Source of the DNA: Fidelibacterota bacterium
GTDB lineage: Bacteria; Fidelibacterota; Marinisomatia; Marinisomatales; TCS55
Assembly (NCBI GenBank): GCA_004124385.1
Contig: SCKN01000002.1
Location: forward strand, 1 to 64,000
DNA: 64,000 nucleotides
Direction: 5' to 3'
Position 1 is the stretch's first letter; each line of letters begins with the position of its first letter. A program made the translations under genes and the position numbers. Below the pieces are notes generated by a model. It was not told the origin of the DNA and did not search any database. It saw only the letters and a program-made list of their open reading frames with translations. Shown one piece after another: positions 2,003 to 52,121 of this stretch.

Positions 2003-2061
2003 ATTTGTAATTGATTCATAGTAACTTTCACATCTCAATCATTTCACTTTAAGAGGATTTT

Positions 2062-2997: not shown

Positions 2998-2999
2998 TC

Positions 3000-31000: not shown

Positions 31001-34000
31001 TTAACCGCTAATTGCAATATTTATATCAAACCCGAAATCACGGTCAATTTTCTTGCCAGTTGTTTTTGATTCTGATTCTCTGTATTCATATAAAATACCA
31101 CCGCTTATTTGGGAACTGAATGAATATGAAATACGCAAAGACGTTTTCCAACCGGAGTTAAAAGCTGTTTGACCAAACTCTGCTCCGCCATTTCTACTGC
31201 CCAATGTTTCACTCTCATTCATATCGAAATTAAGCGTGAAGTTTACAGTATTCTGGATATGCCAATCATCCATCATTGGCAACGGAATTGTAAAACCACC
31301 ACGATGGCTGTAATTACAACTTGCTGTCCACGATTTTTCATTTCTCACATTCAAACCATTTGCTTCATCTTGAACAGATTTAGAAACATTATGACGAATA
31401 TTCATGGAGATACCTTTTTTCAAATTCATATTCAATCCAAAAAGAGGTGAAAAGCTAATATTCTTCCTTACTGCAAGTTGATCATCAGTGTAGTTATTAA
31501 TGAATTCATTAAGCGTGAAAAGTGGCATGGCCGGTCCATCAAAATTTTCAAATTTCCATGAACGTGCTTCTTTGCCATTTACGGCATGTTCAATACTTGC
31601 TGATCGTGCAATTTTTTTAATGAAAGGCCATTTCTCCACTCCGGTCCAACGCAAACTCCAACCAAAGAACGGGATGCCTTTTTCTAACTTTTCTCCCCAA
31701 AATATATGATCTCTAGACATGGAACGTTGCTGAATATTTGATGCACCGATAGTCGTAGATATGTTTTGCGCATACTTCATGGATGTAGAAATATTACGAG
31801 TAAAATTCAAACCTGAACGTATAGAAAAATCTCGTTTATGATCCCACGAACCCAGATCAGATCCGATATTATCAGCATGTTCCAATCCATGTTCCGGCAG
31901 CCATCCAAATTTATATCCGGTGGGGACTGTTCCTTGCACACCGTATCCCATGCGGTTGAGATTTTCTGTATATGATATACTAATAGGGTTTACCTTTTTT
32001 ACGATGCCATGCAATGCCGTCAGAAAAGCATTTTCCTTCTGTTCAGGTTTCGTTTCTTTTATTTCTTCTTTTTTGACTTTAGAACGACCTCTTCGTCTTG
32101 AACTCCCCAGTCGTCTTATTGATTTCGTAGGCGGTTTATAAATCAATTCAAATATTTGCGATGGTAAAATATTTACGCTGGAAGAAAAACGAAATTGAGT
32201 CGTAATCTTTGCACCATCGATTATGCTGGCACGCGGTTTATTCCAACTATAAGCAGCATTATGGCTGAAATTTGGTTTCAACCAAGAAAATATTTGGGGG
32301 TTAAAAGACGTATTGAGTGTTTCATTTATTTTTTCCACAACACCCGGGTCCATTTCTTTTAGAGCTATCCAGGCATACCCGCGAAAATCCTTCAAATCAC
32401 TCGTAATGGTTCTTTTATATTTTGTTTTCAATTTGTCTGTTAAACTATAATCCAGCGAAAATTGTCTGTTTAATCCAAAGGCATAATTTTCAGAACGAGC
32501 ACCAACTCGTTTCGTCGTTTGGGAAAATGTTTCATTCATTTTAACACTGGTATTAAATGCTGTAGGTGAATAATAAACATTCATGTCTCCCAGCTTGTCT
32601 CCCAGCCAAGGAACGTCCTTCAGCCATTTAAATGGTGTAAAATAATTATCTCTTCTAAAGGGATAAGAATAGCTAACTGAACCAGAATATTTTTCATTTA
32701 ATACTTCTGAATTAAGCGAATTAGAAGAAGAGGATTGAGAAGCTGAAAAACTGGGTTTAATCTTATCGAGAGTCGCTTTAATAAATTTGTTATCGGATTT
32801 ACTGGATTTTGTCAAAGAGGTACTGAAAGAAATTCCCTGACTTTTAATCATTATGGAATCAGGAACATTATTCTCATCAACTAATATATCAGAATCTGGA
32901 AAATATTTTGGCTTGTTTTCAGATTTTGAAAAGGAAGCATTCAAAGGAATACTCACACCCCACGTTTTTGGCAATAATTTGTGGAACTGAATATTAGTGT
33001 TCACCCGGAAATTTTCTGTATTTGTATTACTACCCAATCTCTGTTGTAAAATATGAAAATCAGCATCTTTTTTACTGTATGAAATTGTAGATGAAGCCAA
33101 GTCTGCTAAATTGAATTTGGATTGCAACCGCATGGCAATACCACGGTCTTTTTTTACACCACTTAATCGCATTTCATCCAGCCATACTTCACCCGTAATC
33201 GGTACATTCGCCTTATTCGTAACACCAACAGTAAAATATAAAATGCTCGAGAGTGAAGGCTTCCCCTTTATGCGTATTTTTTTACCTGTTTCAAATCCGT
33301 CTTCATCTGTAAAAGTATAAAGTCTTTCGTTTTCTAAAACTTCATATAAATCAGAATCACGATACTTTTTGACTGATGATGAATCCTGAAGTTTTAATTT
33401 AGTCAGCCAGTTCAAATCTATTTCAATCGAATTTCTGCCTTGAGACTCATCCCAACCACTGTATACTGGTTGCACAAATTCATAGTAATTATCTCCTTGA
33501 CCAAATCGAAGAAAAAATTCGACATCCGTTTCTTCCTTTCCAATCCAAGGACTCGGAGTTTCACCATATATATACATTTTCATCTTGTCATACGTCAAAT
33601 AATTCACACCTGATTTTTTCATCAAACTTTTCATTGCACCTCCGCTATACCCAACAGGCAAATCAGTAAATTTCATCACCAGCGATTGTTCTTTTGATCG
33701 GATATCGTTCAATCTGTCATATTCCCCTTTTACACCATCCGGAGGAGTATAATTATCATTGTCTTCAGTATTAATAACGGAAATAGAAAAAACACTATCT
33801 GCATTTTCTTTGGAAAATGTATTGGATGAATCCTGTGCTATGCCAATCTCCTGCCATACATTTCCGACTAATTCTATTTTTGCAATACTAACATTGATGT
33901 TTTCTTCATCAGAAACAACTAATCGCATATAACGAATTTCTGTCCATTCCGGGCTCATGCTCGAATCCACTCTGCTGAAATGATTCAAAGGAATACGATA

Positions 34001-37000
34001 TAATTTCCAACCGGTATAATTTCCATCGGATTTTTTTGTCCGGCCTGCCAAGTATGTTGTATCTGTAAGAAAAAAGGATTTGGTAAAATATTTATTCACC
34101 CGCTGCAATTCAGTTGATCGATCAAAGCTTTCTGAATCAGGATATTTTCCTGCATCGAGGGCATTTCCTTCAGTCCCGTTAATTTTTGAAAAATCAGAAC
34201 TTCCTTCTTTGTACGACCAATTGTCATTATTTGGGTCGTTCAAATTGCGATCTTGACCCGTATAAACCAAATCTGCCCAAAAGGGGTCATCCACAACATC
34301 TACATAAAATGTGTCAATACATCCTCCCCAACCATCTTCATATTCATCCAAACAGCCGTCGAGTCCAATATCTTCACCATCATCTAAAAGAGTATTCCCA
34401 TTCATACCTGCTTCTGGGATATCCTCAGTATCTACTAAACCATCCCCATCGCGATCTTCACTTATTCTTCCTAAATCAATAGTTAATTTCCCATTTTCTC
34501 CATAAAGCCATATTTCGAAAAACTTTGTTTGAGTTTGGTCGTGATCGCCAGAATATAAACGTGTTGTTATTCCAGACCATAAAGAATCCTGCAATAAACC
34601 ACTATGCAAATCTTTAAGCCGATAATTTAATTTCAAAATATCTGTCGTTTCATTTTGGGCGCGGATAGATGTTGACTGGTTTGGCCATATATCTTTTGTC
34701 CGAACTTGAACAAAGGGGTTATACCAGATTAGTTTGGCTCGATGACGTTGATTGAGCTGACCATCATGATCTGAAGCAAGAGGTGCGGATGATTCTCGCC
34801 AGTACCTCCGTTGAATCGGGATGGATGTTGTCCGTTTTGATCCTTCGAAATCATCAATAAACGCTACACCATTTGGATCACCTGTAAATGTATTATTGAT
34901 TGGATTTGGATTTGGTAAAACTTGGGCTATTTCTCCCTCGATTGAAAATGAAGACATTTTTTCTGTTTCAATGATGGGTAACCGGTCTAAGGCACGAGTT
35001 AATCCATCGAAATCATATTGAAAGCGCCCATTTATATCCCAAATAAAATTGCGCATTGGTTCATATCCCACTTCAATTTTTTCATTCATTATAGACTGGT
35101 TATAATACAAAGCAGTCACACCAATAAATGATTTATCACCCAAATCCATCTGAGCGCGTGTTCCAATAATTGTTTTCTTATCAAAGGAAACCAGTTCATG
35201 TTTGTCGAACAATATTTTTAGGTTTGCTTCAGGGCTAATGTCTGTATTTAAAATAAGTGTACCGCTAAAATAATCGACCTGATAATCCTGTCCCCGTTTA
35301 AGTTCAATACCATCAAGAAAAACCTGATCACTGCCTTCCACAATCATAAAACCCAAGTTAATGGTGGAACTTGTATTAGAATATGCAACTTCTATTTCCC
35401 AATGCTTGTCCCGGGTAAAATCACTTATAAGCGAAGATGTATACATTTCTCCTTTTCCCAAGACACCTTTTAAATCAGGATTGGTATTGCCTCCTTCTAA
35501 TGAATCATTTGCAAAAGGATGGAACATGGGAAAAAATAATTCACCCGTTTGAAGGCTAACAATATTGGGATTTGACATATCTATTAGATTATCACTTTTC
35601 AATTCATTTGATGTGTCAACACTATCCATTCCGAATTGTGTAATATACTCAACTCCATTTGGATCATAATACTTATCCGGCTGGAAATCCGTATTCCAAA
35701 TCTTTACACTAAACCCTTCCGGATTAATATTATTGGCACCCATGTAATAAACATTTTTAAACATAAGATCCCATAAATCATGAGAGGGCGTCAGGCTTTC
35801 CGGCTTAATCATTTGTAACAGCAGTGTGGAATCATTATCAGACACACCATGACCAACAGCCATAACTGTATCAATGATATTATCTCGATTATTAGCATCG
35901 AGCTCCACAATTAAATAATGGCAAGCGATTACTTTATCAGCTGATCTGTTTCTTAAACGCAAATACCCCAAATCTCTGCTGATTGAATAATCCATTCCTT
36001 CTTCAAGCCGTTTGAATTTCACATTATTTCGATCATAATCTGATGGATTATTTATATCCACCATGGCAGAACCCGGTTCTGAAGTGGGGTCAGTGGAATT
36101 ATCCATACGATATAATTCAAAATTACGTACCGCATAGCGCCCAATGCGATGGAGACCGCCTTTCAGTGGATAAAATGGCGGTATATATTGGATATTCTTG
36201 GATTGACCCATATACTCCGTTGGCTGATTCTGGACGCCATTGCGATACAGTGTGTTAATAAAGAAATATTGATATCTTATATAGTCATAATCATTGATAC
36301 GCTCAGTTTGTGCATCACTTGTTCCTTCGTATTCCAGCTGTTCCTTCTTAGTCTTTTCTATTGAGGCAATCATGGTAATATCTATAGGGCCCAGTTTTGA
36401 AACTGCTTTTAAACCGAAAAGACCTTTATTTTTTCCCGAAAATGTGACATACTGGGTAGAGGGTAACGATAATGAAATATTCCCGGCATCAATCTTCTGG
36501 ATAATATCATCTTCAGCTCCTTCATAGGAAATACGAATATTGTTTTCCCAGTCAAAATCTCGTTCAGAGTCATTATCCATTAACACAGTAATGCGATCAC
36601 CAATTTTTCCTTCCACATTCAAATTTTGTTTTTGGTCAAATACGAGATGTGTGTTTTGAGATTCAGCTAAACTAGACCGTATTAATTCCTGATCTTGGAA
36701 AACCATTTTTCCTGAAATATTTATATTTCCTCGCACACGTAATGAAGCTGTGCCCAGAGCGCCCATGTCCACTAAATCGAATGTGATGCCTTTGCCGCCT
36801 CGCCGAGATGTTACTGCTACATCTTCACTCCCAATTGACACCTTTTCTGAAAATATGATTCGTCGTTTGATGCTAATCATATTATTAAAATACCAATCCA
36901 TTGGAGCCGTGAAAGGGATTCGAAAAATTTCATCATCAATATATTCAGTTAATGTGATGTATTGCCAATCGCGATCAATATGTACTTCAATATCTCGTTC

Positions 37001-37219
37001 TCCAAAATCAGCTTTTATCCATCCTAAAGGAGTTAATAAAGTATCAGAAAGCAAGCTTAAGGGTTTTGGAATATCCGGAAATGCAGGTGTGATATAATCT
37101 GATACAAAAATGAACTGATCCCGTGAATTTTGGACGGACGAATCCCATTGACCCTCCTGGGCATAGAATGCCGAGGAGGCCATAATAAGTATTAATATGA
37201 CCGCAAACCCTTTATGCAA
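31001..37219 (-). CDS. sprA: SprA, T9SS outer-membrane translocon protein
   Basis: The giant barrel (2072 aa) that forms the T9SS protein-conducting channel. Signal peptide ending FYA before Gln-Glu. Conserved SprA segments include GKIGDRITVLMDNDSERDFD, ISYEGAEDDIIQKIDAGNIS, LSLPSTQYVTFSGKNKGLFG, FIDDFEGSKRT, GEVWLDEMRLSGVKKDRGIA and many barrel strands thereafter. It is a few hundred residues shorter than Bacteroidota SprA/Sov proteins but no end seems missing. The start is TTG 37219, with AGGAG seven bases upstream; there is no suitable ATG before the signal peptide. It leads a - strand run containing QC, PorV/PorQ-like proteins and T9SS cargo. Confidence 0.93.
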   Translation of the reverse strand: MHKGFAVILILIMASSAFYAQEGQWDSSVQNSRDQFIFVSDYITPAFPDIPKPLSLLSDTLLTPLGWIKADFGERDIEVHIDRDWQYITLTEYIDDEIFRIPFTAPMDWYFNNMISIKRRIIFSEKVSIGSEDVAVTSRRGGKGITFDLVDMGALGTASLRVRGNINISGKMVFQDQELIRSSLAESQNTHLVFDQKQNLNVEGKIGDRITVLMDNDSERDFDWENNIRISYEGAEDDIIQKIDAGNISLSLPSTQYVTFSGKNKGLFGLKAVSKLGPIDITMIASIEKTKKEQLEYEGTSDAQTERINDYDYIRYQYFFINTLYRNGVQNQPTEYMGQSKNIQYIPPFYPLKGGLHRIGRYAVRNFELYRMDNSTDPTSEPGSAMVDINNPSDYDRNNVKFKRLEEGMDYSISRDLGYLRLRNRSADKVIACHYLIVELDANNRDNIIDTVMAVGHGVSDNDSTLLLQMIKPESLTPSHDLWDLMFKNVYYMGANNINPEGFSVKIWNTDFQPDKYYDPNGVEYITQFGMDSVDTSNELKSDNLIDMSNPNIVSLQTGELFFPMFHPFANDSLEGGNTNPDLKGVLGKGEMYTSSLISDFTRDKHWEIEVAYSNTSSTINLGFMIVEGSDQVFLDGIELKRGQDYQVDYFSGTLILNTDISPEANLKILFDKHELVSFDKKTIIGTRAQMDLGDKSFIGVTALYYNQSIMNEKIEVGYEPMRNFIWDINGRFQYDFDGLTRALDRLPIIETEKMSSFSIEGEIAQVLPNPNPINNTFTGDPNGVAFIDDFEGSKRTTSIPIQRRYWRESSAPLASDHDGQLNQRHRAKLIWYNPFVQVRTKDIWPNQSTSIRAQNETTDILKLNYRLKDLHSGLLQDSLWSGITTRLYSGDHDQTQTKFFEIWLYGENGKLTIDLGRISEDRDGDGLVDTEDIPEAGMNGNTLLDDGEDIGLDGCLDEYEDGWGGCIDTFYVDVVDDPFWADLVYTGQDRNLNDPNNDNWSYKEGSSDFSKINGTEGNALDAGKYPDSESFDRSTELQRVNKYFTKSFFLTDTTYLAGRTKKSDGNYTGWKLYRIPLNHFSRVDSSMSPEWTEIRYMRLVVSDEENINVSIAKIELVGNVWQEIGIAQDSSNTFSKENADSVFSISVINTEDNDNYTPPDGVKGEYDRLNDIRSKEQSLVMKFTDLPVGYSGGAMKSLMKKSGVNYLTYDKMKMYIYGETPSPWIGKEETDVEFFLRFGQGDNYYEFVQPVYSGWDESQGRNSIEIDLNWLTKLKLQDSSSVKKYRDSDLYEVLENERLYTFTDEDGFETGKKIRIKGKPSLSSILYFTVGVTNKANVPITGEVWLDEMRLSGVKKDRGIAMRLQSKFNLADLASSTISYSKKDADFHILQQRLGSNTNTENFRVNTNIQFHKLLPKTWGVSIPLNASFSKSENKPKYFPDSDILVDENNVPDSIMIKSQGISFSTSLTKSSKSDNKFIKATLDKIKPSFSASQSSSSNSLNSEVLNEKYSGSVSYSYPFRRDNYFTPFKWLKDVPWLGDKLGDMNVYYSPTAFNTSVKMNETFSQTTKRVGARSENYAFGLNRQFSLDYSLTDKLKTKYKRTITSDLKDFRGYAWIALKEMDPGVVEKINETLNTSFNPQIFSWLKPNFSHNAAYSWNKPRASIIDGAKITTQFRFSSSVNILPSQIFELIYKPPTKSIRRLGSSRRRGRSKVKKEEIKETKPEQKENAFLTALHGIVKKVNPISISYTENLNRMGYGVQGTVPTGYKFGWLPEHGLEHADNIGSDLGSWDHKRDFSIRSGLNFTRNISTSMKYAQNISTTIGASNIQQRSMSRDHIFWGEKLEKGIPFFGWSLRWTGVEKWPFIKKIARSASIEHAVNGKEARSWKFENFDGPAMPLFTLNEFINNYTDDQLAVRKNISFSPLFGLNMNLKKGISMNIRHNVSKSVQDEANGLNVRNEKSWTASCNYSHRGGFTIPLPMMDDWHIQNTVNFTLNFDMNESETLGSRNGGAEFGQTAFNSGWKTSLRISYSFSSQISGGILYEYRESESKTTGKKIDRDFGFDINIAISG

Positions 37220-38263: not shown

Positions 38264-39283
38264 ATGAATCACATATCTATACATAATTTCATTGAAGGCA
38301 TCCCCAAAGCGGAACTTCATTTACATATTGAAGGCACATTTGAACCGGACCTCATGTTCGAAATTGCCCGCCGAAATAATATTTCCATAAACTTTAAATC
38401 AGTAGATGAATTGAAAAAAGCATACAATTTCAATAATCTTCAGGAATTTTTGGATATTTATTATGCCGGAGCAAGTGTTCTTATCTATGAACAGGATTTT
38501 TATGATTTGACTTGGGCCTATCTCACCAAAGTTCACGAGCAAAATTTGGTTCATACCGAAATATTTTTTGATCCCCAAACCCATACGGACCGTGGCATTT
38601 CCTTCGATACGGTTATTCAAGGAATTCATAGCGCATTAGAAGATGCTAAAGAAAAACTGGGAATCAGTTCCCAATTAATCATGTGCTTTTTACGCCACTT
38701 GGATGAAGTTGCTGCGTTTGATATATTGGAGCAGGCTTTACCTTATAAAAAGTGGATTGCTGGGGTGGGATTAGATTCATCCGAGATGGGACATCCACCG
38801 TCAAAATTTGAGAATGTTTTTTCAAAAGCATTGGATGAAGGGTTTATCACCGTGGCTCATGCAGGCGAAGAAGGTCCTGCGGCATATGTGTGGGAAGCAA
38901 TTAATCTATTAAAAATATCCAGAATTGATCATGGGAATCGATCTTTGGAAGATGATCAATTAATTAAGCATATTGCGGAAAAACAAATACCGCTTACCGT
39001 GTGCCCTTTGTCTAATCTGGAATTAAAAGTAGTTGACGATTTAAAAGATCATCCCATGCTTCAATTAATGGAAGCCGGATTAATGGTCACCATAAATTCG
39101 GATGATCCGGCGTATTTTGGAGGGTATTTGAATGAAAACTATATCCAGATTGCGGCTGCTTTAAATCTCTCAAAAAAACAAATTACCGATTTAGCTAAAA
39201 ATAGTTTTAAAGCCAGTTTTCTCTCCGATGTTGAAAAAGAAAAATTGATAAACCAAGTTGAAGACTATTATCAAAATAATTAA
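38264..39283 (+). CDS. Adenine deaminase (adenosine-deaminase-like, type 2)
   Basis: Predicted to deaminate adenine to hypoxanthine. The 339-aa protein belongs to the adenosine deaminase superfamily: zinc ligands His19 and His21 in ELHLHIEGT, His and Glu of VAHAGEEG, and Asp of INSDDPAYF. The segments YYAGASVLIYEQDFYDLTWA, EIFFDPQTH, GLDSSEMGHPPSKF and CPLSNLELKV are the pattern of the adenine-specific Aah1/Ade branch, not of true adenosine deaminases. It starts the purine-degradation cluster, is followed immediately by guanine deaminase, and supplies hypoxanthine to the Xdh enzyme encoded downstream. Confidence 0.85.
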   Translation: MNHISIHNFIEGIPKAELHLHIEGTFEPDLMFEIARRNNISINFKSVDELKKAYNFNNLQEFLDIYYAGASVLIYEQDFYDLTWAYLTKVHEQNLVHTEIFFDPQTHTDRGISFDTVIQGIHSALEDAKEKLGISSQLIMCFLRHLDEVAAFDILEQALPYKKWIAGVGLDSSEMGHPPSKFENVFSKALDEGFITVAHAGEEGPAAYVWEAINLLKISRIDHGNRSLEDDQLIKHIAEKQIPLTVCPLSNLELKVVDDLKDHPMLQLMEAGLMVTINSDDPAYFGGYLNENYIQIAAALNLSKKQITDLAKNSFKASFLSDVEKEKLINQVEDYYQNN

Positions 39284-39763
39284 ATGAATATAGATCAACA
39301 AAAAGTATTCATGCGCGAAGCCATTCGATTATCCATGGAAAATGTTCAATCTGGCAACGGGGGACCATTTGGTGCCGTTATTGTAAAAAATGGAAAAATC
39401 ATTGCAATCGGCGTGAATAAAGTGACAAAATCTAATGATCCGACTGCCCACGCCGAAATAAACGCCATCCGGAATGCTTGCAAAACACTGGACTCCTTTC
39501 AGTTAGATGAATGTGAAATATATTGCAGTTGCGAACCCTGTCCTATGTGTTTAGGTGCCATCTACTGGGCACGGCCAAAAGCAATTTATTTTGCCAATAC
39601 TAAAAAAGATGCAGCAGAAATAAATTTTGATGACAATTTCATTTATCATGAAATGAAACTACCCTTTCCTGAACGAAAACTGCCTACCATCCAGTTATTA
39701 CGGGATGAAGCACAATCTGCTTTTATACAATGGCAGGAAAGTGATGACAAAATAGATTATTAA
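39284..39763 (+). CDS. guaD: Guanine deaminase (cytidine-deaminase fold)
   Basis: Hydrolytic deamination of guanine to xanthine. The 159-aa protein has the zinc site His56-Ala-Glu58 (HAEINAI) and Cys86/Cys89 (PCPMC), and the Bacillus GuaD-type stretch IYWARPKAIYFANTKKDAAE that sets it apart from tRNA adenosine deaminases and riboflavin deaminases. It begins with the base following the adenine deaminase stop codon and overlaps xdhA by one base. With its neighbour it funnels both purine bases towards xanthine dehydrogenase. Confidence 0.92.
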   Translation: MNIDQQKVFMREAIRLSMENVQSGNGGPFGAVIVKNGKIIAIGVNKVTKSNDPTAHAEINAIRNACKTLDSFQLDECEIYCSCEPCPMCLGAIYWARPKAIYFANTKKDAAEINFDDNFIYHEMKLPFPERKLPTIQLLRDEAQSAFIQWQESDDKIDY

Positions 39764-41160
39764 TGATTGAATTTATTCTCAATAATAAACCCGTAAAAAC
39801 AGATCAACCCAGCGGTTCACTGCTTCTTGATTTTGTGCGGTATGAGCAATCACTTATAGGGACCAAAATTGGATGTAGAGAAGGTGATTGCGGCGCGTGT
39901 ACTGTTCTTATTGGTGAATTGATTGATGGCAAACTAAATTATCGACAAGTTACATCCTGCCTAACACCGCTCGGAAATGTGCAAGGAAAACACGTGGTTA
40001 CCATTGAAGGGCTTAATATGGAATCATTAAGTCCCGTCCAGCAATTCATGGTGGATGAAAGTGGATCTCAATGCGGGTTTTGCACAACGGGATTTGTTGT
40101 ATCGCTCACCCAATTTTGTTTGGCCAATTCAACGCCAAGTTATAAAGATGCCATTGCTTCAATCGACGGGAATATTTGCAGGTGCACGGGATACAAACCA
40201 ATTGAAAGGGCCGCAAAGCATATTACTGAATCCCTGACTGACAAAGATCAAAATGAAACCCTGGATTGGTTAATCGCACAAAAATTCATTCCATCATATT
40301 TCAACCAAATTCCTGAAATGCTAAATGCATTACCTAAAGGGAATCATGATTCCCAAAACGGAACGCTTATGGGCGGCGGCACCGACCTTTATGTACAAAA
40401 ACTTGACCAATTAATCGATCAAGATGTGGATCTTATTTTAAATACGCATGGTATCAATAATATTGAAATCGAAAATGACAGTTGTACCCTTGGCGCTGGA
40501 TCAACCGCTACAGATTTACTTGAATCGGACATTTTTAGTTCTGCCTTTCCCCGACTCAAGAAGCATATAAAATTGGTGGCATCTTCGCCTATACGGAATA
40601 TGGCAACAATCGGCGGTAACTTTGCAAATGCATCACCCATTGGAGATTTTACTGCTTTTTTTCTGGCACTGAACGCCAAAATAAAATTGACAAATAAGGA
40701 TCAAAACAGAACCATTTATTTAAAAGATTTTTACAAAGGGTACAAAGATCTGGATAAGTCGACCGATGAAATTGTTTCCACCATTTCATTTAAACTTCCA
40801 ACACAAGACAGCCATTTTAATTTTGAAAAAGTAAGCAAACGAATTCATCTTGATATTGCCAGTGTAAATACGGCAATTCAAATATCCATTTCCGAAAATG
40901 AGATTACACAGACACATTTATCAGCCGGTGGAGTGGGTCCTATTCCTTTGTATTTGCGTGAAACGTGTGACTTCCTTTTGGGCAAAACACTTTCACCGGA
41001 AACTGTTCAATCAGCCAATGAAATACTACAATCAGAAATCAATCCTATAAGTGATGTGCGAGGATCTGCAAACTATAAACGATTATTACTTCGCCAACTT
41101 TTTTACGCCCATTTTATTACACTTTTCCCAGACCAATTCACCTTGGATTCACTCAAATGA
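39763..41160 (+). CDS. xdhA: Xanthine dehydrogenase, Fe-S and FAD subunit
   Basis: Electron-transfer subunit of the Mo-dependent xanthine dehydrogenase. Residues 1-75 bind the plant-type [2Fe-2S] cluster (Cys38, Cys43, Cys46, Cys66). Residues about 80-160 bind the second cluster (Cys104, Cys107, Cys139, Cys141). Residues about 178-345 are the FAD-binding domain with ASSPIRNMATIGGNFANASP, and about 355-460 the CO dehydrogenase flavoprotein C-terminal domain. The Fe-S and FAD parts are fused (465 aa), like E. coli-independent XdhA of Rhodobacter. ATGA overlap with xdhB supports one transcript and coupled translation. Confidence 0.95.
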   Translation: MIEFILNNKPVKTDQPSGSLLLDFVRYEQSLIGTKIGCREGDCGACTVLIGELIDGKLNYRQVTSCLTPLGNVQGKHVVTIEGLNMESLSPVQQFMVDESGSQCGFCTTGFVVSLTQFCLANSTPSYKDAIASIDGNICRCTGYKPIERAAKHITESLTDKDQNETLDWLIAQKFIPSYFNQIPEMLNALPKGNHDSQNGTLMGGGTDLYVQKLDQLIDQDVDLILNTHGINNIEIENDSCTLGAGSTATDLLESDIFSSAFPRLKKHIKLVASSPIRNMATIGGNFANASPIGDFTAFFLALNAKIKLTNKDQNRTIYLKDFYKGYKDLDKSTDEIVSTISFKLPTQDSHFNFEKVSKRIHLDIASVNTAIQISISENEITQTHLSAGGVGPIPLYLRETCDFLLGKTLSPETVQSANEILQSEINPISDVRGSANYKRLLLRQLFYAHFITLFPDQFTLDSLK

Positions 41161-43421
41161 AAAATATTGATTCCAAAGGACATGTAACGGGGAAATCCAT
41201 TTATCTGGATGATATTCCCCTAATTCAGGGAACGCAATTTGGCGTTGTGTTTGATTCACCTATCGCCCACGGCACCATTACATCTGTTGATTATTCCAAA
41301 GCACTTGCGATTCCCGGCGTTATTAAAATAATTACCCATGAAGATATTCCTGGCGAAAACCAGATTGGCGGTATTATCCCCGATGAACAATTATTCTCAT
41401 CTACCGAAGTCCATTTTGTGGGACAACCAATCGCACTCATTATTGCAGAATCGGATCAAATTGCCTTTGAAGCACGGAAATGCATTGAAATTAAAATTTC
41501 AAAAAAGAACATAATTGTTGATCCAAGAGAAGCCCAACAAAAGGATCTATTAATTATTCCACCCCGAACATTTGAATTGGGTGACACGGAAAATTCGTGG
41601 GAAAATTGTGCTCATATTTTTGAAGGACAAGCAGATTCAAATGGACAAGAACATTTATATATCGAAACCCAGGGCGCCTATGCGATTCCAATGGAAAATG
41701 GACATATTCGAATTTCATCTTCAACCCAAGGACCTACAGCTGTTCAGCGAATAACGGCAAGAGTATTGGGTGTAGGTATGCATAAAATTGAAGTGGATGT
41801 TGTTCGAATCGGGGGTGGTTTTGGCGGCAAAGAAGATCAAGCAACGCCATGGGCCGTTATGGCAGCATTGGGTGTATCCATACTGAATTTACCAGTGAAG
41901 GTGGTTTTAAGCCGGTTGGACGATATGCGAATGACGGGCAAAAGACATCCATACAGTTCCGATTATAAAATTGGATTTTCTAAAGATTTAAAAGTCATGG
42001 CTTATGAGACGACTTTCTATCAAAATGCTGGCGCGGCGGCTGACTTGTCCCCTGCCGTCATGGCAAGAACTCTATTCCACGGCACCAATTCTTACTTTAT
42101 TCCCAACGTGAAAATGACTGCCTATTCCTGCAAAACCAACTTGCCGCCAAATACAGCCTTCCGTGGATTTGGTGGACCACAGGGCATGTTTGTTATTGAA
42201 TCTGCTTTATCTCATGCAGCAAAGGAGTTGGGCATTTCTAAACATAAATTACAAAAAAATAATCTCCTTATAAATGGAGATGAATTCCCCTATGGCCAAA
42301 TTGCAGATGGAGTGGAACTGAATTCTATTTGGCAGGAGATGGAATCAAAATTTGATATTGGATCCATTGAAAAGGAAATGGATGAATTCAATTCAAGTCA
42401 CACAGATGTAAAAAAGGGGTTCTCCTTGATGCCTGTGACATTTGGAATATCCTTTACAAAAACACCCATGAATCAAGCACGGGCGCTGGTCCATATTTAT
42501 ACAGATGGTAGTGTGGGTGTGAGTACCGGCGCCGTGGAAATGGGACAGGGCGTCAATACGAAAATGCTCCAGATTGCAGCACACGTTTTTTTGATTGATC
42601 CAAAACGAGTTAAACTGGAATCAACCAACACAACGCGGGTTGCGAACACATCTCCTTCTGCTGCCAGTTCCACTGCCGATCTGAATGGAAAGGCGTTACA
42701 AAAAGCATGCAATACATTATTAGAACGACTCAAAACCTGTGCCGCTGACCATTTGGGTGTTTCATCCAAGGATATAACCCTGAAAAATGGCATGGTTTAT
42801 ACGAATGAAAACCCGACAGATTTAACGTGGGAGCAACTTGTGATGATGGCTTTTTTAAAACGCATTTGCCTAACAGAAAATGGACATTATGCCACGCCAA
42901 AAATTAACTTCGATATGAAGAAAGAGAAAGGACACCCTTTCGCTTATCATGTTTATGGCTTGGCCTTAACCCAAGTGACCCTTGATTGTATTCGCGGGAC
43001 CTATGATTTTGATGCAGTAAAAATTGTTCATGATTTTGGTAAAACAATGAATCCAAGTGTGGATTTTGGTCAGGTTGAAGGCGGACTGATTCAAGGCATG
43101 GGTTGGATGACCATGGAAGACCTTCGTTATAATAATGATGGACAATTAATGTCCAACACGCTTTCCACCTATAAAATTCCGGATATTTATTCTGTGCCAA
43201 AAACGGTAACCATTGAACCGCTTGAAACCAATGGAAATGACATGGCAATCCTAAAATCGAAAGCTGTGGGCGAACCGCCACTCATGTATGGAATCGGTGC
43301 ATATTTTGCCATCGATCAGGCCATCAAATCGTTCAATCCAAATTTTAATTCAACTTTTGATGCACCCTTTACCCATGAAAAAGTACTTATGGCTTTATAT
43401 GGCTCTTTAGTTTCTGAATGA
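41157..43421 (+). CDS. xdhB: Xanthine dehydrogenase, molybdopterin-binding subunit
   Basis: Catalytic subunit oxidising hypoxanthine to xanthine and xanthine to urate. The 754-aa protein begins KGHVTGKSIYLDDIP (aldehyde oxidase/xanthine dehydrogenase hammerhead domain to about residue 110). The Mo-cofactor region has IGGGFGGKEDQA near 220, NTAFRGFGGPQGMFVIE near 325 and GAVEMGQGVNTKMLQIA near 460. The catalytic base is the Glu of KAVGEPPLMYG, about residue 706. Sequence length and motif order match XdhB of the two-subunit bacterial enzymes. It overlaps both neighbours by four bases. Confidence 0.95.
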   Translation: MKNIDSKGHVTGKSIYLDDIPLIQGTQFGVVFDSPIAHGTITSVDYSKALAIPGVIKIITHEDIPGENQIGGIIPDEQLFSSTEVHFVGQPIALIIAESDQIAFEARKCIEIKISKKNIIVDPREAQQKDLLIIPPRTFELGDTENSWENCAHIFEGQADSNGQEHLYIETQGAYAIPMENGHIRISSSTQGPTAVQRITARVLGVGMHKIEVDVVRIGGGFGGKEDQATPWAVMAALGVSILNLPVKVVLSRLDDMRMTGKRHPYSSDYKIGFSKDLKVMAYETTFYQNAGAAADLSPAVMARTLFHGTNSYFIPNVKMTAYSCKTNLPPNTAFRGFGGPQGMFVIESALSHAAKELGISKHKLQKNNLLINGDEFPYGQIADGVELNSIWQEMESKFDIGSIEKEMDEFNSSHTDVKKGFSLMPVTFGISFTKTPMNQARALVHIYTDGSVGVSTGAVEMGQGVNTKMLQIAAHVFLIDPKRVKLESTNTTRVANTSPSAASSTADLNGKALQKACNTLLERLKTCAADHLGVSSKDITLKNGMVYTNENPTDLTWEQLVMMAFLKRICLTENGHYATPKINFDMKKEKGHPFAYHVYGLALTQVTLDCIRGTYDFDAVKIVHDFGKTMNPSVDFGQVEGGLIQGMGWMTMEDLRYNNDGQLMSNTLSTYKIPDIYSVPKTVTIEPLETNGNDMAILKSKAVGEPPLMYGIGAYFAIDQAIKSFNPNFNSTFDAPFTHEKVLMALYGSLVSE

Positions 43422-44404
43422 CTGCCAATCCTAAAATCTCCTACTGGAAAAAAGTTTTATCCTTATTAAACGAAGAACAAAATGTGTTTTTAGCCATGGT
43501 TGTACATCATACCATCCACTCTCCCGGCACAACGGGCGTCAAATTGTTGGTAGCGGAAAATAAAAAAATGATGGGAACAATCGGCGGCGGCATTATGGAA
43601 CATACTTTGGTAAATCGGGCACAGGAAATTTTATCCAATGGACATTTCATCCCGAAAATTCACACACTCAACCATCAAAAATCCGGAACGGATGAACAAT
43701 CGGGAATGATTTGCGCCGGAAAACAAACCAATCTGTATTATGTATGTGAACCAAAAAAAGATGGTAAAACTGTAGGAAAAATAATCCAAATTTTGAATGA
43801 AGGTCAGTCCTCCATACTATCAATTTCTCCAGAAGGTATGACGGTACATAAACAAAAATTAAATGATTACGAATTTCAATATAAGTTGATACAAGACGAA
43901 CATAATTGGCACTATCAGGAACAGCTGAAGAACTTTAATCGAATTGCAATTTGGGGTGGCGGTCATTGTTCATTGGCATTATCCCGGATCATGAATAATC
44001 TTGGGTATGATGTGGTTGTATTTGAAACACGGGAAAATATTTCTACTTTAGATCAAAACACATTTGCGGATTCGGTTCAAATATTAGATGATTTTAAAAA
44101 AGCGGCATCTCAAATAAATTTACCTGAAAAAACCCAAGTTGTAATCATGACAACCGATGTGAAGTCTGATGTTCGTAGCTTATTGGGCATTTTGGATAAA
44201 CCATTCCCTTTTATTGGTATAATGGGGAGTCAGGCAAAAATTTCTGAAATTAAAAGACGGTTGAAAAGTGAAGGTATTCCCGAGCAACAAATTTCTCGAT
44301 TGACCGCTCCCGTTGGGTTACCAATGGTGAGTAATACGCCGGAAGAAATTGCTATCAGTGTAGCAGCTCAATTATTACAATTAAGATTTGAGATGACCAG
44401 CTAA
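43418..44404 (+). CDS. xdhC: Xanthine dehydrogenase accessory protein XdhC
   Basis: Chaperone that binds and sulfurates molybdenum cofactor and inserts it into XdhB. The 328-aa protein has the N-terminal XdhC/CoxI domain (AMVVHHTIHSPGTTGVKLLV, then GTIGGGIMEH) with a Cys in SGMICAGKQ, and a C-terminal Rossmann-like domain starting IAIWGGGHCSLALSRIM near residue 172 and ending with PVGLPMVSNTPEEIAISVAA. It directly follows xdhB, and precedes allantoinase by one base. Confidence 0.93.
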   Translation: MTANPKISYWKKVLSLLNEEQNVFLAMVVHHTIHSPGTTGVKLLVAENKKMMGTIGGGIMEHTLVNRAQEILSNGHFIPKIHTLNHQKSGTDEQSGMICAGKQTNLYYVCEPKKDGKTVGKIIQILNEGQSSILSISPEGMTVHKQKLNDYEFQYKLIQDEHNWHYQEQLKNFNRIAIWGGGHCSLALSRIMNNLGYDVVVFETRENISTLDQNTFADSVQILDDFKKAASQINLPEKTQVVIMTTDVKSDVRSLLGILDKPFPFIGIMGSQAKISEIKRRLKSEGIPEQQISRLTAPVGLPMVSNTPEEIAISVAAQLLQLRFEMTS

Positions 44405-44405
44405 A

Positions 44406-45755
44406 ATGGCATCAACTCCAAATTTAGCAATCACCAGTCAACGTGTGATCACTCCACAAGGAGAAAGAGCGGCGGCAATTTTAATCCGTGGTGAAAAGAT
44501 TTTAGATATTATTTCTATTTCAGAAATTCCTACTGATTGTCCCGTTGAAGATATGGGAAATAATGTAGTCATGCCTGGACTTGTGGATACACATGTCCAT
44601 ATAAATGAACCGGGAAGAACCGATTGGGAAGGGTTTGAAACTGCCACAAAAGCAGCTGCGGCCGGTGGTATCACTACCCTTGTGGATATGCCTTTAAATT
44701 GCATTCCTGTCACTACAACCGTAGATGCGCTCAACCAAAAAATTGTAGCCACGCAAAATCAACTTTGGATCGACTGCGGATTTTATGGCGGTTTAATTCC
44801 CGATAATATTCAAGATATCGAACCGTTGGCCGATGCGGGTGTGTTAGGATTTAAAGCTTTTTTGAGTCCTTCCGGTATTGATGAATTTCCAAATATTTTA
44901 GAAAGTCACCTTCGAGAAGCGTTACCCGTTTTATCTAAAAAAGGAATCCCGATTTTGGTTCATGCAGAATTGGAGAATGGAACAGCCCAGTCCGAAGAGA
45001 ATAAAACCTATAAAAGTTTTCAAGATTCCAGACCAAAATCTTGGGAAAATAATGCGATAAAATTACTCATACAGTTATGTAAAGAATATAATGCGCGAAT
45101 TCATATTGTGCATCTATCATCCGCTGATATTTTAGCTGATATTGCTCAAACGCGGAATGATGGCTATCCCATTTCTGTTGAAACATGCCCCCATTACCTT
45201 CATTTTGCATCCGAAAATATTTCTGATGGTGATACACGATTTAAATGTGCGCCACCGATTTGGGAAGGTGAAAATAGAGAAAATCTCTGGCGTGGATTAG
45301 AAAAAGGAATGATTAATTTTATTACATCGGATCATTCGCCCTGTACGCCGGAATTAAAAAACATGAAAGCGGGCAATTTTGAAAAAGCATGGGGCGGGAT
45401 TTCATCCATTCAATTTACACTTCCCGTTATATGGACCGAGTGTAAAGCGCGCGGATTCTCCATAGATCAGCTCATTAATTGGATGAGTACGGCCCCCGCA
45501 ATATTCATTGGCAAAGATCAACAGAAAGGTCAGATTTCACCCGGGTATGATGCTGATTTAGTATGTTGGAATCCGGACGAAAAATACATTATCCAAAAAG
45601 AAGCTATTCATCACAAAAATAAATTAACGCCCTACGAAGGTGAATCTCTTTATGGTGTTGTGAATACAACTTTTCTTCGGGGACAAAAGGTATATGAAAA
45701 TGGAGAATTTTTAGGAAACCCAACAGGGAAGATAATTTTAAAAAATAATGGATAA
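44406..45755 (+). CDS. allB: Allantoinase
   Basis: Zinc amidohydrolase opening the hydantoin ring of allantoin to allantoate. The 449-aa protein has the metal-binding His-x-His in DTHVHINEPGRTDWEGFETA (near residue 62), the carboxylated-lysine segment LGFKAFLSPSG near 156, the metal His of LVHAELENG and IVHLSS, and the catalytic Asp in TSDHSPC near 318. NEPGRTDWEGF is specific to allantoinase as against dihydroorotase or hydantoinase. It overlaps the allantoicase gene by eight bases. Confidence 0.93.
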   Translation: MASTPNLAITSQRVITPQGERAAAILIRGEKILDIISISEIPTDCPVEDMGNNVVMPGLVDTHVHINEPGRTDWEGFETATKAAAAGGITTLVDMPLNCIPVTTTVDALNQKIVATQNQLWIDCGFYGGLIPDNIQDIEPLADAGVLGFKAFLSPSGIDEFPNILESHLREALPVLSKKGIPILVHAELENGTAQSEENKTYKSFQDSRPKSWENNAIKLLIQLCKEYNARIHIVHLSSADILADIAQTRNDGYPISVETCPHYLHFASENISDGDTRFKCAPPIWEGENRENLWRGLEKGMINFITSDHSPCTPELKNMKAGNFEKAWGGISSIQFTLPVIWTECKARGFSIDQLINWMSTAPAIFIGKDQQKGQISPGYDADLVCWNPDEKYIIQKEAIHHKNKLTPYEGESLYGVVNTTFLRGQKVYENGEFLGNPTGKIILKNNG

Positions 45756-46725
45756 TACATTGATTGATCTCGCTTTAGAATCAAATGGTGGTCGTACCTT
45801 ATTGACCAGTGATGACTTTTTCGCACCCAAAGAAAACTTATTAAAACCAGGTCGTGGCGAATTTATTGAAGATAAATATACGGACCATGGCAAATGGATG
45901 GATGGATGGGAATCTCGCCGTAAACGAACGGAAGGCAACGATTGGTGCATTCTGCGGTTGGGAAAACCTGGCATCATTTCTGAAGTAGATATTGATACCC
46001 ATCATTTTGTGGGGAATTTTCCATCTCATGCATCTATAGAAGCATGTACCATGCCTGAATATTCCGGATTAGATGAATTAATTGAAACGGGCGAATGGAT
46101 TGAAATTTTACCCAAAGTTGAATTAAAGGGCAATTCCCAAAATAAATTTGGTATTTCGAGCGACCAAACCTTTACCCACCTTCGACTCCATATTTATCCC
46201 GATGGCGGCGTGGCAAGATTCCGAGTTTATGGGAACCCTAATCATTCCGACAAAAACGAAAATAAATTAATCGATTTTGCACTGGCTGATAATGGCGGAG
46301 AAATGATTTCCTGTAGTGATATGCATTTTAGCCATATGGAAAATTTAATAAAACCCTCCACAGGTATCGATATGAGTGATGGATGGGAAACTAAACGACG
46401 ACGCGGGCCGGGGTATGATTGGTCAATTTTAAAATTGGGCTCTCCATGTAACATCGAACTCGTTATTGTTGATACTCTCCATTTTAAAGGAAATTTCCCC
46501 GATTCATGTTCGGTAGAAGGATGTAATGAGTCCGATAAAACCAATGATTTATTTATCGATGAAAACATGGAATGGATGGAACTATTGCCCAATTCAAAAC
46601 TGGCTGGAAATCAGGAAAATGTTTTTATCCTAAACCAGCATTCGCCAATCACCCATATTCGGTTTAATATTTTTCCAGATGGCGGCGTAAGCCGATTAAG
46701 GATTTTAGGCCGTAAAGCATCATGA
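45748..46725 (+). CDS. alc: Allantoicase
   Basis: Hydrolyses allantoate to ureidoglycolate and urea. The 325-aa protein is the usual internal duplication of two galactose-binding-like units: first NGGRTLLTSDDFFAPKENLL with GWESRRKR and DTHHFVGNFPSHASIEAC, second NGGEMISCSDMHFSHMENLI with GWETKRRR and DTLHFKGNFPDSCSVEGC. Both conclude HLR/HIRFNIFPDGGVSRLRI-like. It lies between allantoinase and the OHCU decarboxylase with overlaps on both sides. Use of allantoicase, not allantoate amidohydrolase, means urea rather than ammonia is released here. Confidence 0.95.
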   Translation: MDNTLIDLALESNGGRTLLTSDDFFAPKENLLKPGRGEFIEDKYTDHGKWMDGWESRRKRTEGNDWCILRLGKPGIISEVDIDTHHFVGNFPSHASIEACTMPEYSGLDELIETGEWIEILPKVELKGNSQNKFGISSDQTFTHLRLHIYPDGGVARFRVYGNPNHSDKNENKLIDFALADNGGEMISCSDMHFSHMENLIKPSTGIDMSDGWETKRRRGPGYDWSILKLGSPCNIELVIVDTLHFKGNFPDSCSVEGCNESDKTNDLFIDENMEWMELLPNSKLAGNQENVFILNQHSPITHIRFNIFPDGGVSRLRILGRKAS

Positions 46726-47225
46726 CAATTGAATCATTAAATTCACTAACAATTTCTGAAGCAAATGAACAGTTTGAATTATGCTGTGGCGCCGAAATTT
46801 GGATTCAAAAAATGAATCAGAATCGTCCATTTCAGGATGAAGATGAAATCTATGAGAAAGCGGAATCAATTTGGTTTTCACTTTCATCGGAAGATTGGTT
46901 AGAAGCGTTCACCCATCATCCAAAAATTGGCAATATTGATTCCTTACGGAAAAAATTTCAAAATACAAAATCAATTTCCGAGAATGAACAGTCTGGTGTA
47001 GATAATGCAACAGAAAGCACCTTAAATAATTTAGCTGAATCAAATCAATTGTACGAAGAACAATTTGGTTTTATTTTTATTGTCTGTGCCACAGGAAAAT
47101 CTGCCGATGAAATGTTGGCACTCATAAAAATAAGGTTCAACAATAATGCAGAAACAGAAATGCTAAATGCGGCCAAAGAACAAAATAAAATCACACAACT
47201 ACGATTAAAGAAACTATTATTATGA
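46722..47225 (+). CDS. uraD: 2-oxo-4-hydroxy-4-carboxy-5-ureidoimidazoline (OHCU) decarboxylase
   Basis: Converts OHCU stereospecifically to (S)-allantoin. The 167-aa helical protein has the catalytic His66 in THHPKIG, the family start SLTISEANEQFELCCGAEIW, and QLYEEQFGFIFIVCATGKSADEML later, where the Gly-Phe-Ile-Phe-Ile-x-Cys segment forms the substrate pocket. ATGA overlaps on both sides. With HiuH and PuuD encoded downstream it completes urate to allantoin, keeping the stereochemistry needed by allantoinase. Confidence 0.92.
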   Translation: MTIESLNSLTISEANEQFELCCGAEIWIQKMNQNRPFQDEDEIYEKAESIWFSLSSEDWLEAFTHHPKIGNIDSLRKKFQNTKSISENEQSGVDNATESTLNNLAESNQLYEEQFGFIFIVCATGKSADEMLALIKIRFNNNAETEMLNAAKEQNKITQLRLKKLLL

Positions 47226-48658
47226 AATCATCATTTACGCCCGAAAATATTGGCGATATTAATCAACACCTTAAAACTGCAAACGCCCGTTTTAGTCAAA
47301 ACTATCCAGGCGAATCATCCAAAAGACAACCCGTCCATACCGTTTATGGCGGTGCCCATATTTTTAAGGAAGGAACAGCCATGAAAATGGGTGTTTCTGC
47401 ATTAAATCATATCAAGGCATATGCGCCAAATTTTGTGGAATTTGCAAAAATACTTGAACTAAAAGGGCATGATCAACTTCCAAATTCCCAAGAAGGTATT
47501 TCTACCCTTGAAAATTATTTCATAAACGAATTATCTGAAGGTAAAGAAGAACATTTTGCATTTATTGCTTATACCGTATATCAACGTGTTTTAGAAAAAT
47601 TATCAAGAGAAGCGGTAGAAGATTTCCGAATTGACTTTGAAGATGGATATGGAAATCGACCAGAGGAAGAAGAAGATAATCATGCGATTTTAGCGGCTGA
47701 AGAAGTCGCCAAAGGCATGGCTTCAAATTCACTTCCCCCATTTATCGGAATCCGAATAAAACCATTAACGGAAGAACAAAAGAATAGAGCCATTCGAACA
47801 TTGGATATATTTGTTTCTACCCTTTCAGAAAAAACAAACGGGACTCTACCCAATAATTTTGTAGTCACAATTCCAAAAGTCACAATCCCAGAACATGTTA
47901 CCGCCATTGTTCAATTATTTGAAATATTAGAAGAAAAAACAGAACTGGCTTCGGGGGCACTCAAGTTAGAATTAATGATTGAAACACCACAATCCATTTT
48001 AGATAAAAATGGAAATTCTGCATTACTAACATTGGTAAATGCTTCTAATGGTCGGTGTGTTGGCGCACACTTTGGTGTCTATGATTATACGGCATCTACC
48101 AATATTACAGCCGAGTATCAAAGTTTAACCCATCCAAATTGCGATTTCGCACGACATATGATGCAGGTTGCATTGGGCGGTACTGGTATACGCCTTTCCG
48201 ATGGTGCCACCAATATAATGCCAGTGGGCCCTCATCGTCCCAGTGATGGAAATCCATTAACAGATCGTCAAATAGAAGAAAACAAATCCGTGGTGCATCA
48301 TGCATGGCGATTGAATTTCAATAATGTAAATCATTCTTTAAAACATGGCTATTACCAAGGATGGGATTTACACCCCAGTCAATTACCTTTACGATACGCG
48401 GCGGTGTACTCCTTTTTTCTGGATGGATTGGCTTCCACATCATTACGGTTAAAATCATTTATGGGCAAAGCGGCTCAAGCAACATTGATTGGCGATGTAT
48501 TTGATGATGCAGCCACAGGACAAGCATTATTGAATTATTTTCTACAAGGTATTAGTTGTGGTGCTATTTTAGAGAAAGATGCAGAAAAAACAGGACTCAC
48601 TCTGGATGAAATTCGTACACGATCATTTAAAATGATTTTAGAAGGGAGACAATCATGA
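47222..48658 (+). CDS. HpcH/HpaI aldolase/citrate-lyase-like protein (DUF6986 type) in purine operon
   Basis: Function unproven. The 478-aa protein belongs to the PEP-pyruvate TIM-barrel superfamily, most like the DUF6986 group sometimes named phosphoenolpyruvate kinase. Acidic metal-binding text is present in RIDFEDGYGNRPEEEEDNHA, then IGIRIKPL, the family Glu in LKLELMIETPQSIL, and GRCVGAHFGVYDYTASTNI, which recalls the acidic site of malyl-CoA/citrate lyases and malate synthases. It is embedded between uraD and hiuH with ATGA overlaps, so it very likely acts in purine catabolism. Since the cluster would yield ureidoglycolate and then glyoxylate, a glyoxylate-using aldol reaction (malate-synthase-like) is my preferred hypothesis; it is not shown by sequence. 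Confidence 0.72.
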   Translation: MKSSFTPENIGDINQHLKTANARFSQNYPGESSKRQPVHTVYGGAHIFKEGTAMKMGVSALNHIKAYAPNFVEFAKILELKGHDQLPNSQEGISTLENYFINELSEGKEEHFAFIAYTVYQRVLEKLSREAVEDFRIDFEDGYGNRPEEEEDNHAILAAEEVAKGMASNSLPPFIGIRIKPLTEEQKNRAIRTLDIFVSTLSEKTNGTLPNNFVVTIPKVTIPEHVTAIVQLFEILEEKTELASGALKLELMIETPQSILDKNGNSALLTLVNASNGRCVGAHFGVYDYTASTNITAEYQSLTHPNCDFARHMMQVALGGTGIRLSDGATNIMPVGPHRPSDGNPLTDRQIEENKSVVHHAWRLNFNNVNHSLKHGYYQGWDLHPSQLPLRYAAVYSFFLDGLASTSLRLKSFMGKAAQATLIGDVFDDAATGQALLNYFLQGISCGAILEKDAEKTGLTLDEIRTRSFKMILEGRQS

Positions 48659-48993
48659 CATGTAAAATTACAACCCACGTTTTGGATTTAGTTCAAGGGA
48701 GACCGGCTAACAATATTCCTGCTGTGCTGGAAAAATTAGGTGATTCCTACACATGGAAATCTATTGGAAAAGGCACAACAAATGATGATGGTCGAATTGA
48801 TGATTTAATTGGAGAAAATGATTCAATTTCAAAGGGGACCTATCGCTTAACATTTGATGTTTCATCTTACTTTGAACCGAATAGTTTCTACTCTTCAATT
48901 CCAATTATTTTTAACATTACAGATACCAATCGCCTCTATCATGTCCCTTTATTATTGAGCCGATTTGGATATTCTACTTACAGGGGAAGTTAA
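48655..48993 (+). CDS. hiuH: 5-hydroxyisourate hydrolase
   Basis: Transthyretin-related enzyme that hydrolyses 5-hydroxyisourate to OHCU. The 112-aa protein has the catalytic set His8 (ITTHVLDL), Arg47, His96 (YHVPLLLS) and the C-terminal Tyr-Arg-Gly-Ser, which is diagnostic for the hydrolase versus transthyretin. No signal peptide is present, so it is cytoplasmic. It overlaps the aldolase-like gene by ATGA and lies three bases before puuD, the enzyme that makes its substrate. Confidence 0.96.
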   Translation: MTCKITTHVLDLVQGRPANNIPAVLEKLGDSYTWKSIGKGTTNDDGRIDDLIGENDSISKGTYRLTFDVSSYFEPNSFYSSIPIIFNITDTNRLYHVPLLLSRFGYSTYRGS

Positions 48994-48996
48994 TAA

Positions 48997-49818
48997 ATGG
49001 AGTGGTATACATATACAGTTTCCGAACTCTTGAATCTCGCATTTCGGTGGTTTCACATCGTAGCCGGTATCAGTTGGATTGGGCAAACGTATTTATTCAA
49101 TTGGATGGAACGAACACTGCCGTTAGAAATTGATGCAAATGCAGATGAAAATGTGTCAGGCCAACTTTGGATGGTCCATGGTGGTGGATTTTATTTGGTG
49201 GAAAAACAAACCAAGCCCAAAGTAATGCCCCGCACACTCCACTGGTTTAAATGGGAATCCGCATTAACATTTTTGAGCGGATTTTTTCTACTCATAATTG
49301 TCTATTATATGGGCGGGCTTATGCTGGAACCGGATTCAGAAATGAGCGACTTAACCGCAAGTTTAATTGGAATAGGTGTATTAATTATCGGATTTGGTAT
49401 TTATCGACTATTGTGGTCATCTCCATTGGGTAAAAATGAATACATTGGCGCAACCATTTCTCTTATTCTCATTATTGGTTTATTCGTTGGGATGGATCAA
49501 ATATTCAGTTCCCGTGCTGCCATGTTTCATATTGGCGCATTATTAGGTACCATCATGGCGGCCAATGTTTGGATGATTATTCTGCCTGCACAACGAAAAA
49601 TGATTGCCGCTGTAGAGAACAATCAACAACCGGATATGTTATTGGGCGCGAAAGCAAAAAACTGTTCAAAACATAATACGTATATGTCAATCCCCGTTAT
49701 TTTCATTATGATTAGTAGCCACTTTCCGGTAACCACTTACGGCAATACGGACAACTGGCTTATGTTGGGGATATTTATTCTTATTGGCTGGGCAGCAGCA
49801 AAATGGATGAGGGGATAA
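48997..49818 (+). CDS. puuD: PuuD-type membrane urate oxidase lacking cytochrome c domain
   Basis: Integral membrane protein of 273 aa, predicted to hydroxylate urate to 5-hydroxyisourate and pass electrons to the respiratory chain. It has about eight membrane segments; the family signature is WFHIVAGISWIGQTYLFNWM near residue 18, then GGGFYLVEKQ and MFHIGALLGTIMAANVWMII. The well-studied Agrobacterium-type PuuD continues into a C-terminal cytochrome c domain; here the protein ends KWMRG with no CxxCH, and none is encoded nearby. It is the last gene of the purine operon and the only urate oxidase candidate in it. Confidence 0.88.
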   Translation: MEWYTYTVSELLNLAFRWFHIVAGISWIGQTYLFNWMERTLPLEIDANADENVSGQLWMVHGGGFYLVEKQTKPKVMPRTLHWFKWESALTFLSGFFLLIIVYYMGGLMLEPDSEMSDLTASLIGIGVLIIGFGIYRLLWSSPLGKNEYIGATISLILIIGLFVGMDQIFSSRAAMFHIGALLGTIMAANVWMIILPAQRKMIAAVENNQQPDMLLGAKAKNCSKHNTYMSIPVIFIMISSHFPVTTYGNTDNWLMLGIFILIGWAAAKWMRG

Positions 49819-51572: not shown

Positions 51573-52121
51573 ATGATGACTTATATAGATACTATAAAAA
51601 TAGAGGATGCCGAAGGAATCGTTAAACAGGAATATGATAAAGGTATTCGTCGGTCCGGTAGAGTGTTTAATATTTTAAAAATTATGAGTCGCAGCCCGGA
51701 TACATTAAAAATATCAATGCGGATGTATTTGACAATCATGTATGGGGAATCAGACTTATCCCGAGCCCAAAGGGAAATGCTGGCTACAGTTGTATCGCAA
51801 ATCAATCAATGCCATTACTGAATAGAATCCCACGGGGATGACTTCCGTGATGAAGTCCATAATGAAGAACTAGCAAACCATTTGAAACACGATTGGAAAA
51901 TGGCTGACTTGTCTCAAAAAGATAAAACACTATGCTCATGGGCCGAGAAACTAACCCTAACTCCAGGGAAAATGGACGAATCAGATGTACGTAGGTTGGA
52001 AGCAACTGGTTTTTCTCAAAATGCCATTAGTGATGCGGCACAAGTGATTGGTTATTTTAATTATATAAATCGAATTGCAGATGGATTAGGTGTTGATTTA
52101 GAACCTGACATGGTAAAGTGA
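51573..52121 (+). CDS. Predicted selenoprotein: AhpD-like/carboxymuconolactone decarboxylase family, peroxidase-related
   Basis: A 182-residue protein if the TGA at 51819-51821 is read as selenocysteine. The N-terminal part (YIDTIKIEDAEGIVKQEYD, then LSRAQREMLATVVSQINQCHY) is typical of peroxidase-related AhpD-like proteins, where the next residue is the second Cys of CxxC. Here that position is TGA, giving Cys80-His-Tyr-Sec83-Ile-Glu-Ser-His87, the C-x2-U-x3-H form of the AhpD active site. The same frame continues for 99 codons of family-like sequence to TGA 52119. A hairpin with a G in its loop lies 24 bases after the TGA. Start: ATG 51573 or 51576, preceded by GGGG. Expected role: thiol-dependent peroxide reduction. 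Confidence 0.82.
51838..51860 (+). promoter_or_regulatory. Candidate bacterial SECIS element
   Basis: GACTTC (51840-51845) pairs with GAAGTC (51852-51857), extended by AT/AT with one bulged C to eight pairs. The apical loop is CGUGAU, beginning 24 bases after the UGA with G in second place and GU in the loop, which fits the loose rules for bacterial SECIS hairpins. An alternative stem CACGG (51831-51835)/CCGTG (51845-51849) is possible. Confidence 0.6.

Follow-up and report, generated by a model that had tools for sequence, protein, structure and literature searches.

Does the in-frame UGA at positions 51819-51821 bring a short gene to a premature end, or is it read as selenocysteine (Sec) within a longer one? 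We addressed this question in a stretch of 64,000 nt (the window) from a genome of 2.09 Mb that is 96.8% complete, and whose close relatives are recorded as Ca. Neomarinimicrobiota or Marinimicrobia (also given as Fidelibacterota). The original prediction held that the frame stays open through the TGA and for 99 codons beyond it, that the TGA stands at the second Cys of a CxxC motif, residue 83, with a His four residues on, and that Sec is inserted there.

An AhpD-like frame that continues through a TGA

The gene lies at 51573-52121 on the plus strand. Read through the TGA, its translation has 182 residues, with U83 placed within QINQCHYUIESHGDDF and followed by 99 codons, and the real stop codon is a second TGA, at 52119-52121. 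Translation under table 11 alone ends after 82 amino acids; annotation pipelines would end the gene at residue 82, losing part of the active site. The sequence GGGGA just before the ATG resembles a ribosome-binding site, and the gene may instead start at its second ATG (51576), which is the starting point in most homologues.

The length of the read-through says little on its own: the window holds 24 further frames (25 with this one included) that run through a TGA to a comparable length. By inspection, these others resemble either antisense frames of genes or extensions past a gene's stop. The stretch downstream of the TGA is open in only 0.08% of mononucleotide shuffles. We take homology across the TGA, not frame length, as the decisive evidence for the read-through frame. 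The protein scored 142.3 bits against the "peroxidase-related" model TIGR01926 of the NCBIfam profiles (cut-off 81.8 bits), with residues 11-178 aligned across the TGA, and it also matched the Pfam family PF02627 (CMD). Alignment of the read-through frame to peroxidase-related proteins, which had been proposed as a check, extended over its whole length and put the TGA at the second Cys, so that the predicted frame, motif and residue numbering all proved right. The (seleno)protein model NF041238 (AhpD_rel_CFYUT) covers a related domain and shares the CxxU motif, but it is 357 positions long, and the window protein is not a member because its score of 73 bits is far under the curated cut-off of 175. 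There was also a weak match to PF04636 (sestrin; 28 bits), a likeness that recurs among the structure matches.

An AlphaFold2 model of the protein (pLDDT 95.6) has the AhpD-like all-helical fold and an E-x11-C-x2-C/U-x3-H centre. Its best PDB match was 6k40, the D. radiodurans AhpD-like protein DR1765, followed by 3c1l, 2pfx, 2oyo and 2prr; Sestrin2 structures and the debrominase Bmp8 were more distant. The likeness to 6k40 is near whole-length (E 6e-29, TM 0.92, CxxC centre aligned), at ~33% identity, and 6k40 has Cys, not Sec. In the homologue alignment, residues E68, C80, Y82, 83 and H87 vary hardly or not at all, and Glu68, Cys80, Tyr82, Sec83 and His87 align with the relay of PA0269 and M. 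tuberculosis AhpD. That relay consists of Glu, Cys, Tyr, Cys and His in PA0269, which has weak H2O2 activity, and His replaces Tyr in the M. tuberculosis protein (PMC3141380). The latter (Cys130, Cys133) shares the spacing of Glu, Cys, Cys and His with the window protein, suggesting that the two may work alike (PMC3141380), but it has His, not Tyr, between its Cys residues, uses Cys only, and carries the catalytic helix pair at a different position in the chain.

Conservation of the TGA and of a hairpin downstream

We read codon 83 across 93 homologous loci, codon by codon. It was TGA in 86 of the 93, a proportion that is not the family-wide frequency because the loci were chosen by similarity to a Sec query, which favours Sec members; some of the 93 are also one record taken twice, and the distinct proteins number 81 (76 Sec, 5 Cys). 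Five intact homologues had TGC or TGT, and none of the intact loci had anything but TGA or Cys. The remaining two loci, L036 and L049, could not be interpreted: both come from genome G038, where an orthologue (C20:2718-3261) is split by a frame change near the TGA, perhaps through assembly error or gene decay, and their apparent Cys codons were set aside as belonging to a single broken gene. The other half of the CxxU pair, the thiol residue Cys80 (TGC at 51810-51812 in the window), was encoded by TGC or TGT in every locus covering the position. TGA-bearing loci came from about eight phyla (Fidelibacterota, Verrucomicrobiota, Planctomycetota, Chloroflexota, Myxococcota, SAR324, Actinomycetota and Acidobacteriota). 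A phylum-wide search gave matches in 68 of 245 genomes, with TGA in 63 of the 79 matches listed. By contrast with our sample, Cys forms outnumber Sec forms in the GOS data, 902 to 299 (PMC2398784).

In a tree of the 81 proteins, the five Cys sequences fell together on one side of a single branch, and the Sec and Cys groups of this sample are thus one change apart; with its long branches and thin Cys sampling, the tree does not fix the number of origins. Nonsynonymous divergence was low and alike on both sides of the TGA, with synonymous sites near saturation. Against locus L022, for example, pN was 0.124 before the TGA and 0.091 after it, and pS was 0.77 and 0.54, respectively. Judged from these comparisons, purifying selection acts with equal strength on the parts of the protein before and after the TGA.

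A bacterial SECIS search had been suggested as a further check, and a conserved SECIS-type hairpin is present. It lies at 51840-51857 on the plus strand (GACUUC-CGUGAU-GAAGUC), with an upper stem of 6 bp, a loop of 6 nt with G at its second position, and a distance of 24 nt from the UGA to the loop. A published bSECIS model specifies an upper stem of 4-16 bp, a loop of 3-9 nt, G in the first two loop positions and a distance of 16-37 nt from the UGA, and the hairpin agrees with all of these constraints (PMC13188914). A stem of at least 5 bp was found at the same position in 64 of 68 main-group orthologues, and the mean hairpin score was 14.9, compared with 9.0 in synonymous-codon recodings. 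Cys homologues had no hairpin at the corresponding place. Across two alignments, standard pairs made up 92.4% and 97.0% of pair cells, falling to 20-55% when the partner was slid by 1-3 columns, and the covariation score was reached by none of 500 shuffles in either alignment. Columns 25 and 36, for instance, form a C-G pair in 17 sequences and a U-A pair in 12, with Leu CUC accompanied by GAG and Phe UUC by GAA. With these data, the AhpD-like family gains a SECIS backed by covariation.

The hairpin was assessed by comparison because Rfam models gave nothing: RF00031 (SECIS_1), a eukaryotic-type model, matched neither the genome nor any of the controls, and when the region around the TGA was scanned permissively against Rfam, only chance hits and no SECIS match came back. 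Folded as a single sequence, the hairpin region of the window was not significantly more stable than shuffles (z -1.34). The SECIS signal in these sequences stems from comparison, not from single-sequence folding energy. A hairpin nearer the UGA, predicted in the window at 51827-51839, was rejected; it is absent from most orthologues. A divergent group of Sec paralogues has its own hairpin, closer to the UGA, with the loop at ~17 nt.

Selenocysteine machinery and the reading of the UGA

If Sec is inserted, the genome should carry selA, selB, selC and selD, and a search for them found all four. selA (C1:437641-438987, 518 bits) and selB (C1:435791-437623, 363 bits) are neighbours, tRNA-Sec with anticodon UCA lies at C5:297184-297275 (60.7 bits), and selD is at C11:16125-17048 (locus L058, 1501-2424; 410 bits). 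Many SelD proteins contain Sec, encoded by an in-frame TGA; the selD found here carries its own, within GSGUACK, and is itself a predicted selenoprotein. Among 61 genomes (the source genome and 60 relatives), selA scored above the cut-off in 50 and tRNA-Sec was found in 48. One relative, G022 (93% complete), has tRNA-Sec and a TGA-bearing paralogue (L035, C55:1973-2503) and gave no selA match, probably because of an assembly gap. A complete Sec apparatus, together with a predicted selenium enzyme, is thus documented in Ca. Neomarinimicrobiota, an uncultured and largely marine phylum.

We are highly confident, on the evidence of sequence comparison, that the UGA at 51819-51821 is the Sec codon of an AhpD-like peroxidase-related protein, with insertion directed by the SECIS and carried out through SelA, SelB, SelD and tRNA-Sec. 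The conserved TGA, the hairpin and the Sec machinery make Sec insertion, as first proposed, a very well supported reading. SelA would charge tRNA-Sec with the selenophosphate made by SelD, and SelB with tRNA-Sec would decode the UGA as Sec under the direction of the hairpin, with its loop 24 nt further on; the second UGA (52119) would terminate translation. Sec83 would take the place of the second Cys in the AhpD proton-relay site (Glu68, Cys80, Tyr82, Sec83, His87), where its selenolate would probably attack either a hydroperoxide or some partner in oxidised form. The oxidised Sec83 would then be resolved by Cys80 to a selenenylsulfide, which a dithiol donor would reduce again. Sec insertion itself, the substrate and the electron donor are the parts of this explanation that we infer.

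A lone genome with one TGA would look the same if the codon were a true premature stop in a pseudogene with a decaying 3' part, or a wrong base introduced by sequencing or assembly. However, the identical TGA occurs in dozens of species from several phyla, purifying selection extends past it, and a sequencing error at 51819-51821 is very unlikely because independent assemblies carry the same codon; taken as a whole, this explanation has almost nothing left to recommend it. Reassignment of UGA, or its reading as another amino acid such as Trp, Gly or Cys without selenium, would fit a column that is Cys in non-Sec homologues. UGA is, however, an ordinary stop here, with TGA ending 14 of the 45 ORFs in the window, this gene among them, and the genome has the complete Sec apparatus and a SECIS-type hairpin after the UGA, so that we regard reassignment as highly improbable. 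Decoding of UGA as Sec competes with termination in known systems, and a truncated form of 82 amino acids could accordingly be what chiefly functions under selenium scarcity, the full-length protein being made in small amounts by read-through. Set against this are selection on the part after the TGA as strong as on the part before it, and the position of His87 and the C-terminal helices, which are encoded after the TGA; such a role for the truncated form is very unlikely.

A further alternative opposes only the functional part of our explanation and accepts the Sec reading: the selenoprotein may not be mainly a peroxidase, and may instead act as a reductase, of disulfides or of the dehalogenase type, or work as partner to the neighbouring amino-acid permease. 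AhpD-fold proteins differ in activity, with Bmp8 (a debrominase) and Sestrin2 among the fold matches, the H2O2 activity of PA0269 is weak, and the gene is paired in a conserved manner with an APC permease; among solved structures, on the other hand, the closest relatives are peroxidase-related proteins that share the CxxC-x3-H centre. We consider this alternative unlikely, though a serious one. A role as peroxidase or in thiol redox chemistry, in which Sec is the probable attacking group, seems to us the more likely, because the relay residues match and because DR1765 needs its CxxC for H2O2 resistance: D. radiodurans mutated in DR1765 is sensitive to H2O2, and variants altered at the Cys residues of the CxxC complement the mutant poorly (PMC8945050). 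The substrate is a guess, because the peroxidase activity of AhpD-like proteins is weak or untested.

The catalogued family and a permease neighbour

The prediction also stated that a few Sec-containing AhpD-like proteins had been reported, and these in fact form a catalogued family (PMC1088965, PMC2398784, PMC13188914), of which the window gene is another member. AhpD-like CxxU selenoproteins were represented by 27 sequences from the Sargasso Sea in 2005 (PMC1088965), ranked fourth in size among the GOS families in 2008, with 299 sequences (PMC2398784), and appear as a TIGR01926 CxxU entry in a 2026 catalogue (PMC13188914). The entry AhpD-like 1 (TIGR01926 / COG2128, CxxU) agrees with the window gene in the TIGR01926 model, the CxxU motif and marine occurrence; an assignment to Neomarinimicrobiota and a permease pair were not found in the passages on it that were consulted, and the window gene is placed in the entry via TIGR01926. 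Our literature search, of incomplete coverage, found no work linking selenoproteins with the name Neomarinimicrobiota, and the few papers combining selenocysteine with Marinimicrobia are apparently, from their titles and abstracts, on other subjects. The window gene leaves knowledge of genetic code expansion unchanged.

An APC-family amino acid permease gene (PF13520; 50209-51564, plus strand) lies 8 nt upstream of the Sec-AhpD gene. In most Neomarinimicrobiota orthologues the permease is 3-27 nt upstream (counted from where its alignment ends), at locus L086 it is 2.1 kb away, and at loci L023 and L026 no match was found upstream. From gene order, the two appear to be a tight pair conserved across Neomarinimicrobiota; in other phyla, as far as inspected, the immediate neighbours are not conserved. 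We found no mention of the pair in the available text of the selenoprotein papers, and within that limit it is an addition not found described elsewhere. A divergent second Sec-AhpD lineage (~42-49% identity; loci L034, L035 and L045-L048, around 1500-3400) has its own in-frame TGA, and in several genomes a different APC permease follows it. One speculative and rather doubtful possibility is that in Neomarinimicrobiota Sec-AhpD and the upstream permease form a dedicated module, in which the Sec enzyme protects, regulates or processes the imported substance; if so, the pairing would have arisen or been kept twice, because the second lineage precedes a different APC permease.

Sestrins, which sense leucine in eukaryotes, contain an AhpD-like domain, and this common fold bears on the possible module with the amino-acid permease. 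The window also contains a purine degradation cluster (38264-49818), with genes for an adenosine deaminase-like protein, a cytidine/guanine-type deaminase, xanthine dehydrogenase subunits, XdhC, an allantoinase-like protein, HIU hydrolase and a membrane-type urate oxidase. A link between Sec-AhpD and this cluster was dropped because, among the loci compared, only the relative of the same genus (L062) showed it; the permease, by comparison, is widely kept. A very long ORF of 2072 amino acids occupies 31001-37219 on the minus strand.
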